47,156 nt of DNA. Source: a virus. The stretch lies in the IMG/VR virus record IMGVR_UViG_3300046313_001174, positions 1-47,156 of that record; one strand, written 5' to 3'. A program made the position numbers and the translations under genes. A model generated the notes under the pieces. The model did not search any database and was not told where the DNA came from. It saw only the letters and a list, made by a program, of their open reading frames with translations. Shown here piece after piece: positions 9,381 through 29,662 of the stretch. Position 1 is the stretch's first letter; the number at the start of each line of letters is the position of its first letter.

Positions 9381-9503
9381 TGTTGGGTGGCGGAATGGTA
9401 GACGCTATTATCTGAGAATGTGATCGTGAGTAGGATGCAAAACTACATAGATATGAGTATTATAGGATCACACCACTTACAGGTTCGATTCCTGTCCCGA
9501 CAA
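9381..9503 (+). tRNA. Aberrant tRNA-Leu-like gene with oversized central region
   Basis: The two ends are those of a tRNA. The acceptor arms TGTTGGG (9381-9387) and CCCGACA (9496-9502) pair over 7 bp with one G-T. A leucine-type D-arm (GCG ... CGC, with AATGGTAGA loop) spans 9390-9405. A perfect T-arm (ACAGG TTCGATT CCTGT) spans 9479-9495. Between D-arm and T-arm there are 73 nt where a Leu tRNA needs about 35. ATTAT (9407-9411) and GTGAT (9420-9424) can form a weak anticodon stem with an 8-nt loop CTGAGAAT that contains GAG. An alternative 7-bp helix, TGTGATC (9419-9425) with GATCACA (9466-9472), excludes it. No CCA is encoded. It may be a decayed or unusual tRNA. Confidence 0.6.
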
Positions 9504-25665: not shown

Positions 25666-25696
25666 AAAACCATCTCTTAATAAGGGGTGGTTTTTT
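25666..25696 (+). terminator. Intrinsic terminator before the capsid gene
   Basis: AAAACCATCTC (25666-25676) pairs over 11 bp, with two G-T pairs, with GGGGTGGTTTT (25684-25694) around a 7-nt loop, and T residues continue to 25696. It ends the scaffold-gene transcript and isolates the capsid gene's own promoter. Confidence 0.83.
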
Positions 25697-25713: not shown

Positions 25714-25742
25714 TTTGTATTTAAAATAAATCATTAATTTAG
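25714..25742 (+). promoter_or_regulatory. Candidate promoter for the major capsid gene
   Basis: TTTG at 25714-25717 and TAATTTAG at 25735-25742 are 17 nt apart; the -7 has one mismatch to TAnnTTTG. It lies right after a terminator and before the structured capsid leader, giving a leader of about 125 nt. Confidence 0.55.
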
Positions 25743-25765
25743 CTATCGAAATCAGTATTAGAGTA

Positions 25766-25832
25766 CCCAGGTGGTGCCTGGGCTATTCAACTACTGAGGC
25801 TAAGGTGGTGCCTTGGCCACGGATGGTGTCCG
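25766..25832 (+). promoter_or_regulatory. Capsid-gene leader with three TGGTG hairpins
   Basis: Three hairpins in a row share the five-base loop TGGTG on different stems. They are CCCAGG/CCTGGG (25766-25782, 6 bp), GGCTAAGG/CCTTGGCC (25798-25818, 8 bp with one G-T) and CGGA/TCCG (25820-25832, 4 bp). The closing pair changes from G-C to A-T in the third with compensation on both sides. They end 42 nt before the capsid ATG. Identical loops on differing stems suggest a binding site for a protein or small RNA that regulates capsid translation or mRNA stability. Confidence 0.72.
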
Positions 25833-25874: not shown

Positions 25875-26924
25875 ATGCCAAATTATGCTACCTCGGTGTT
25901 GGCGAAAGGGCAGGCAGTAGTCTCCGCAAAAAACCAATTACCCGAGCAACGTACAAAGATGCCAACCGTATTCGAGTTGGCCATCAAAAATCAAGAATAC
26001 TCAATCCCAAACGCACCGGATTTGAGAAAATCACCTTTGCGCCCTGTAGAGATCAACTACTTCACGAAAGTAGCTCCGGGTTCTGCAACCGCTAAAGCAC
26101 ACAACCACTCAGGTACGTATGGCGACACGGGAAAGGTGGAGTTGGTGTATGTATCACACGTGGAGACTTTAGGTATTCCGCGTAAGATTGCTGATAACTC
26201 TATCATGGAGTATCAAAACATCTTCAATAACCTCTATGAGCAAAAGTGGAAAAACTTACGCAAGCGTCACGACGATTCAGCGTTAGCTTTCTTGTTTGCT
26301 AACCGTGCGCAGTTAGCTGCAAACGTGATGAACCCGCAAATCGCTTCGGCTAATCCGGGCAGTTGGAACGCGGCCAATTTCGCATTGGAGATTAGCCAAT
26401 CGGACAAGAATTTGTTTTTGCAACGTGCGAAAGCATTCATGGCGGCTCGCTACTACACAGGCGATTTAGACATCATTGCCGATTTACAAATCGCGCAATG
26501 GGTTGAATACTTGCAAAACCAAGGTTCTGGTAACTACGTGAATACGGCTTTTCAGACAATGGGTATCAGCCCAGTGGTTACGCAAGATCAAATCGCACCG
26601 GCGTACGGAAACGGTTCTGCTATCGTGATGCCTAAAGGCGCTTTGGCAGGCTTGAACTGGAATGAGGCGTTGAACAAGAGAGGTGTAAACGCAGGTAGCT
26701 CTGACTCTATCGGTATTTTAGGTACTACAGCCGATCCACTTGGTTCAGGCGCAGTGGCCGACATCTCGATGTTCACGCAACGTGCGGACACTTCGGCTAA
26801 CAGCTCTGGTGGTTCAACTCAGGACATCGTAGATCAATGGGAGATTACTTTGACTGTTGGTTACGCGTTACCTCCTTTGGGTACTGCAGGCGATTCTGTT
26901 GTTCACTTGATTGCACAATCATAA
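25875..26924 (+). CDS. Major capsid protein (HK97-like)
   Basis: Main shell protein, 349 residues. It follows the scaffold-like gene, is in the right size range and has the even composition of a highly expressed virion protein. Segments such as TVFELAIKNQEYSIPNAPDLRKSP (start region, about 31-54) and SALGI-like beta stretches near 140-160 fit the HK97 fold, although I cannot align it to a named family. Its transcript has its own promoter and structured leader, consistent with the need for many copies. Confidence 0.82.
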   Translation: MPNYATSVLAKGQAVVSAKNQLPEQRTKMPTVFELAIKNQEYSIPNAPDLRKSPLRPVEINYFTKVAPGSATAKAHNHSGTYGDTGKVELVYVSHVETLGIPRKIADNSIMEYQNIFNNLYEQKWKNLRKRHDDSALAFLFANRAQLAANVMNPQIASANPGSWNAANFALEISQSDKNLFLQRAKAFMAARYYTGDLDIIADLQIAQWVEYLQNQGSGNYVNTAFQTMGISPVVTQDQIAPAYGNGSAIVMPKGALAGLNWNEALNKRGVNAGSSDSIGILGTTADPLGSGAVADISMFTQRADTSANSSGGSTQDIVDQWEITLTVGYALPPLGTAGDSVVHLIAQS

Positions 26925-29609: not shown

Positions 29610-29627
29610 GTTGTTTTAACCTAAAAG

Positions 29628-29652
29628 GCTAGCAGGTTAGAAGCCTGCTAGC
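29628..29652 (+). terminator. Intrinsic terminator after the major tail-like gene
   Basis: GCTAGCAGG (29628-29636) and CCTGCTAGC (29644-29652) form a perfect 9-bp stem with a 7-nt loop, followed by TATTTTAT. It lies 10 bp before the next start and may be leaky, giving more tail tube than downstream proteins. Confidence 0.78.
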
Positions 29653-29662
29653 TATTTTATCC

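Follow-up and report, generated by a model that had tools for sequence, protein, structure and literature searches.

Why should three hairpins with one and the same loop, set on different stems, stand shortly ahead of a phage capsid gene? The question is raised by the virus record IMGVR_UViG_3300046313_001174, which was analysed over its full 47,156 bases and is called the window here; the hairpins precede the ATG, at 25875, of the gene for its major capsid protein (MCP). This gene matches the phrog_7231 virion structural protein (1e-24), the annotated major capsid protein of phage Pan5 (6e-35) and, by profile, the capsid protein of PDB entry 9ww9 (3e-15). The coordinates of the locus are collected in Table 1.

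Three hairpins and their transcription unit

All three TGGTG hairpins with differing stems, as originally claimed from the sequence, are present before the capsid ATG. The pentamer TGGTG occurs 105 times in the window, both strands together; on the plus strand of the 47 kb it is enclosed by four or more Watson-Crick stem pairs only in these three hairpins. The shared five-base loop of the original prediction has to be redrawn: the same letters do stand in all three, but each hairpin, folded singly (-10.7, -12.7, and -3.6 kcal/mol for hairpins 1, 2, and 3), forms a GGU triloop closed by a U-G pair, and GGU is what stays constant among relatives. In the minimum-energy fold a longer outer stem spanning 25752-25797 carries hairpin 1. 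The weakest of the three is hairpin 3, with which alternative foldings compete in the native context. The leader folded as a whole has z = -3.6. The loop of hairpin 3 lies 50 nt upstream of the ATG, a placement kept in the relatives, and the spacer behind it is 39-42 nt long in 10 of the 16 tabulated leaders. The interval 25714-25832 had been taken as the hairpin leader; it includes the hairpins, but these begin only at 25766, so that its 5′ portion includes a putative promoter.

Table 1. Features of the MCP locus in the window.
Feature	Position	Strand	Description
Scaffold-like gene, 277 aa	24785-25618	+	Long coiled coil, disordered Gly-rich stretch; candidate binder
Intrinsic terminator-like hairpin 3′ of the scaffold-like gene	25666-25694	+	13-bp stem, T tail
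Putative Bacteroidota-type promoter	25714-25742	+	TTTG at 25714-25717; TAATTTAG at 25735-25742, one mismatch to TAnnTTTG
Hairpin 1	25766-25782	+	CCCAGG-TGGTG-CCTGGG; as RNA CCCAGGU-GGU-GCCUGGG, 7 bp counting the U-G pair
Hairpin 2	25798-25818	+	GGCTAAGG-TGGTG-CCTTGGCC, one wobble pair; as RNA GGCUAAGGU-GGU-GCCUUGGCC, 9 bp
Hairpin 3	25820-25832	+	CGGA-TGGTG-TCCG; as RNA CGGAU-GGU-GUCCG, 5 bp
Spacer, hairpin 3 to MCP start codon	25833-25874	+	42 nt, mostly unstructured
MCP gene, 349 aa	25875-26924	+	phrog_7231, Pan5 MCP, PDB 9ww9
Terminator-like hairpin 3′ of gene four in the MCP unit	29627-29653	+	12 bp, strong; ends 9 nt before the ATG of a 150-aa gene

The terminator-like hairpin behind the scaffold-like gene, which by eye is also found in Pan5 and in the relative L014, divides the MCP transcription unit from the preceding genes. 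The exact motif TAnnTTTG stands ahead of the hairpins in 47 of 59 leaders (about 0.09 occurrences are expected per 150 nt); the window and L014 have it in a one-mismatch form, and because of this mismatch the promoter of the window is called putative here. At the other end, the terminator-like hairpin before the 150-aa gene recurs at the same boundary in several relatives and suggests stepped-down expression beyond the head genes. Given the promoter motif, the placement of the loops, and the recurring terminator-like hairpin, the MCP unit seems to be transcribed on its own and would carry the hairpins at its 5′ end, with transcript starts predicted from sequence. Elsewhere in the window the Rfam tRNA model matches at 35.5 bits, but the match is stretched across 123 bases (9381-9503), about 50 of them surplus in the anticodon-to-variable region; ARAGORN calls no tRNA there, and the locus may be a tRNA carrying an insert or an unusual tRNA with a long arm.

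The array in related phages

MCP relatives were collected from IMG/VR, GTDB genomes, and annotated phages. A lack of conservation had been named in advance as the outcome that speaks against the prediction; the hairpins were found conserved upstream of the MCP gene. Relatives at 43-75% MCP identity with a readable leader have hairpins of the GGU-array type, and window-type relatives, including the cultured Pseudanabaena phage Pan5 (MCP 27.7% identical to that of the window), carry 2-4 of them in the same place, so that multiple sites shortly before the capsid ATG are a property of the relatives as well. Their stems are unrelated in sequence yet complementary, while the triloop is constant or altered in concert. 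For example, L014 has AATAGGU-GGC-GCCUAUU, UUAGU-GGU-GCUAA, and CGGAU-GGU-GUCCG; L015 has CCAGGU-GGU-ACCUGG, GGGAU-GGU-AUCCC, and GGAGU-GGU-ACUCC; and Pan5 has four, GAAAGC-GGU-GCUUUC, GUGGC-GGU-GCCAC, GGGUA-GGU-UACCC, and CCGUA-GGU-UACGG (the Pan5-like contig L187 has three). Since the closing pair varies across the relatives (U-A, U-G, C-G, or A-U), what stays constant is GGU. L018 has GGA in each of its three loops, and as the MCP tree places it closest to the window and L014, the three changed together; in L022, L026, L027, and L168 the loops are mostly UGU or AGU. The least regular leaders are those of L017, L019, and L023, and extra or interrupted hairpins missed by a simple scan occur in L016, L017, L029, and L023. 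In the leaders of L015, L028, and L020 there is an additional first hairpin of about 8-9 bp directly 3′ of the promoter motif, with the loop CUCCCC or UCUCC instead of GGU. Some relatives have the MCP gene directly behind the scaffold gene, with no long leader (Polaribacter phages, a Rhodobacteraceae phage, L172, and L174-L186), and no GGU-type hairpins were found before the MCP in these.

The claim of a constant loop on covarying stems is borne out by these unrelated stems with their common triloop and by compensatory changes in a stack of the three hairpins from 14 leaders. In this stack 15 of 15 stem pairs have compensatory changes, double-changed cells number 80 against 20.3 in shuffles, and the covariation is 1.07 against 0.27 in shuffles and is lost when the partner is slid; 96% of the positions are paired, a value biased upward because the 14 leaders were picked as visibly hairpin-bearing. 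Loop-anchored and whole-contig tests are free of this selection. GGT with its first four flanking pairs all paired (anchored on the loop, pairing not required) was found in 38 of 89 cases in leaders versus 114 of 5,167 elsewhere, GGT triloops with a stem of at least 5 bp number 29 in 20 leaders versus 39 in all remaining sequence, and NGU triloops with such a stem make up 33 of 188 in leaders versus 149 of 16,906 elsewhere (Fisher p = 6e-31), figures that describe enrichment and not exact probabilities, since related sequences are not independent. When at least three hairpins with the same triloop were sought within 160 nt over 393 kb on both strands, with no loop sequence assumed beforehand, the search returned the MCP leaders (GGU or GGA) and a few cases with A/T-only loops. 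Groups of at least two GGU, UGU, AGU, GGC, or GGA triloop hairpins occur in 11 long contigs only before the MCP, the sole exception being a GGA pair in Pan5; 3 of the 11 contigs have no group under this strict scan, though their leaders hold mixed loops. A covariance model built from the 14-leader stack gave 13 matches in 577 kb; every one is an MCP leader, and most had served as training sequences. In 297 Bacteroidota genomes it gave none, but the genome that contains L031 was equally unmatched, so that this blank carries no weight. A search of viral contigs for three copies of the core GTGGTAC was set aside: among the matches listed, the arrays resembled in-frame Gly/Thr-type coding repeats. 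The hairpin loops are always on the MCP sense strand, and the last loop has a median position of -49 relative to the ATG in both MCP clades.

The second of these clades (L216-L253) has an MCP about 28% identical to that of the window, and its leaders have two hairpins straight after TAnnTTTG, with C-G-closed loops GGUA, GGUU, GGUAU, or GGUAAU (UGU and AGU in L252). Some of the stems lean on several G-U pairs; as these hold only in RNA, the stems fit RNA and not DNA. RNAalifold returned no consensus structure from a MAFFT alignment of this clade, a poor automatic alignment, since the stems differ and the loop lengths vary. In several of these leaders the spacer 20-35 nt before the ATG is complementary to a hairpin loop and its 3′ arm (GGUAAAGUU with AACUUUAUU in L230), which is possibly a switch helix; such a long-range helix has a mean z of -0.9 in the second clade, a weak value from related sequences, and none was found between hairpins and spacer in the clade of the window (mean z -0.2).

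Known RNA families and a candidate binder

What was observed is a real and conserved hairpin array before the MCP gene, and with stems that covary and are kept ahead of a single gene family it belongs to the general kind of cis-regulatory structured RNA leaders. The original statement that no described RNA class fits it holds for Rfam 15, whose covariance models gave no match at gathering score in the window leader and eleven relative loci, and for the literature as far as our partial search covered it, in which no such leader is described. Several known systems resemble the array in part. CsrA and RsmA-RsmE leaders have several hairpins with a constant loop on variable stems, read by protein dimers; multiple hairpins per leader, constant loop, and variable stems are shared with the array, and in L018 the loops, AGGGAU, come close to the loop consensus of CsrA. 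However, the loop of the array is usually GGU, with GGA only in L018, and its sites do not overlap the start region. CsrA was tried as the binder and rejected on 13 records, phage or host, in which no CsrA-family match rose above the cut-off. The coat-protein operators of RNA phages (MS2 and PP7 type) place a hairpin with a recognised loop near a structural gene, and capsid-protein feedback on the array would, by analogy, work alike; unlike them, the array belongs to tailed dsDNA phages, has several sites about 40 nt from the ATG, and has a putative binder only. Lambda boxB and the HK022 put RNAs are phage-specific loops or hairpin pairs near a promoter, whereas the array is placed relative to the ATG of one gene only, with terminator-like hairpins kept downstream. 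Like the array, mini-ykkC (guanidine-II) RNAs line up small hairpins that share one conserved loop and differ freely in their stems, but they consist of two ACGR-loop hairpins pairing together and not of 2-4 hairpins with NGU/GGU loops, and the array, which precedes a phage structural gene, has no Rfam match. The kind is known (a cis-regulatory leader with tandem loop-specific sites); new, it appears, are its family, its target, and its loop.

For a protein partner, gene content offers a guide. The genes common to all 11 array carriers are portal, scaffold-like, MCP, and further head and tail genes, all of them structural, so that a dedicated conserved phage RNA-binding protein is unlikely, unless rapid evolution hides it; a protein of the virion or its assembly, either the MCP or the scaffold-like one, is the likeliest binder, with a conserved host factor as the alternative. 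Feedback of the scaffold on its own synthesis has a precedent in phage P22. The scaffold-like protein has no match in Pfam, and its structural model has a mean pLDDT of 77 and a pTM of 0.35; in the alignment a GRG is invariant in 11 of 11 carriers within the otherwise variable disordered Gly-rich stretch. Similar GRG stretches also occur in the leaderless relatives, and the motif therefore does not speak specifically for binding.

A proposed docking array for capsid dosage

We think it somewhat probable (roughly 0.55), judging from sequence comparison, that the leader is a tandem docking array for a loop-specific protein that tunes the translation and/or the stability of the capsid mRNA. A loop that is constant, or changed in concert, on free stems points to recognition by a loop-specific partner; the 2-4 copies point to multivalent binding; and as the distance to the ATG hardly varies, the function is linked to translation or the mRNA and not to transcription elongation. 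The capsid mRNA leader would thus present 2-4 hairpins with one loop (GGU or a lineage variant) on unconstrained stems, as a multivalent docking site, and the bound protein would adjust translation and/or stability of the message. We infer that the leader acts as RNA near the 5′ end of the mRNA, that a protein reads the loops, and that MCP output is affected. That a bound repressor simply covers the start site does not suggest itself, because the last hairpin lies about 40 nt from the ATG, just beyond the usual initiation footprint. Were the MCP or the scaffold-like protein the binder, the outcome would be feedback control, the alternative being a conserved host factor. The fullest form of this proposal, in which free MCP or scaffold would count itself via the GGU-loop array of Bacteroidota tailed dsDNA phages and at least one cyanophage, as an autogenous capsid-dosage switch with co-evolving loop and protein, is tentative and may well be wrong.

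The hairpins could instead serve stability and ribosome access with no specific regulator, shielding the 5′ end of a very abundant mRNA and insulating an unstructured landing zone, perhaps with a ribosomal or housekeeping host protein holding the loops. They do begin near the predicted transcript start, and their far end keeps an almost constant distance ahead of a spacer that is largely unpaired, which fits initiation in Bacteroidetes, where a lack of structure and upstream A count and Shine-Dalgarno pairing does not (PMC6847099), and occurrence in phages of two host phyla would be accounted for; we nevertheless hold this to be rather unlikely, since plain stability does not need an identical loop on each hairpin, the usual closing pairs U-A and U-G are not the most stable, and the concerted loop change points to sequence-specific recognition. 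That change, as phage-specific loop variants, would also suit an antitermination site of the nut/boxB or put kind, at which RNA polymerase, on entering a late operon, would be modified by the hairpins to read through terminators, as would the promoter-proximal position of the conserved loops and the long operon downstream. But the array keeps its distance to the ATG and not to the promoter, several relatives retain the terminator-like hairpin 3′ of the head genes, and each genome has the array at only one place, all of which makes antitermination improbable.

Inverted repeats near packaging and head genes bring to mind an element acting as DNA (an N4-like hairpin promoter, an origin, or a packaging site), a reading that is very hard to reconcile with loops always on the MCP sense strand and 3′ of the promoter motif, with the near-constant distance to the ATG, and with second-clade stems that depend on G-U pairs. 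The mini-ykkC architecture, too, consists of small hairpins in tandem, alike in the loop and free in the stem, and its repetitive hairpins were remarked to look like protein sites (PMC2864571); a metabolite riboswitch of that manner receives the least credence of all from us, as the loops are not self-complementary, copy number (2-4) and spacing vary, no metabolic gene is attached, and Rfam gives no match.

How tailed phages arrange for the right excess of capsid over portal and scaffold is poorly understood beyond a few models. The array is a compact RNA element tied to one gene and conserved in phages of two host phyla, and its natural loop variants are ready-made specificity controls; with it, control of capsid dosage at the RNA level becomes directly testable, also in the cultured phage Pan5.
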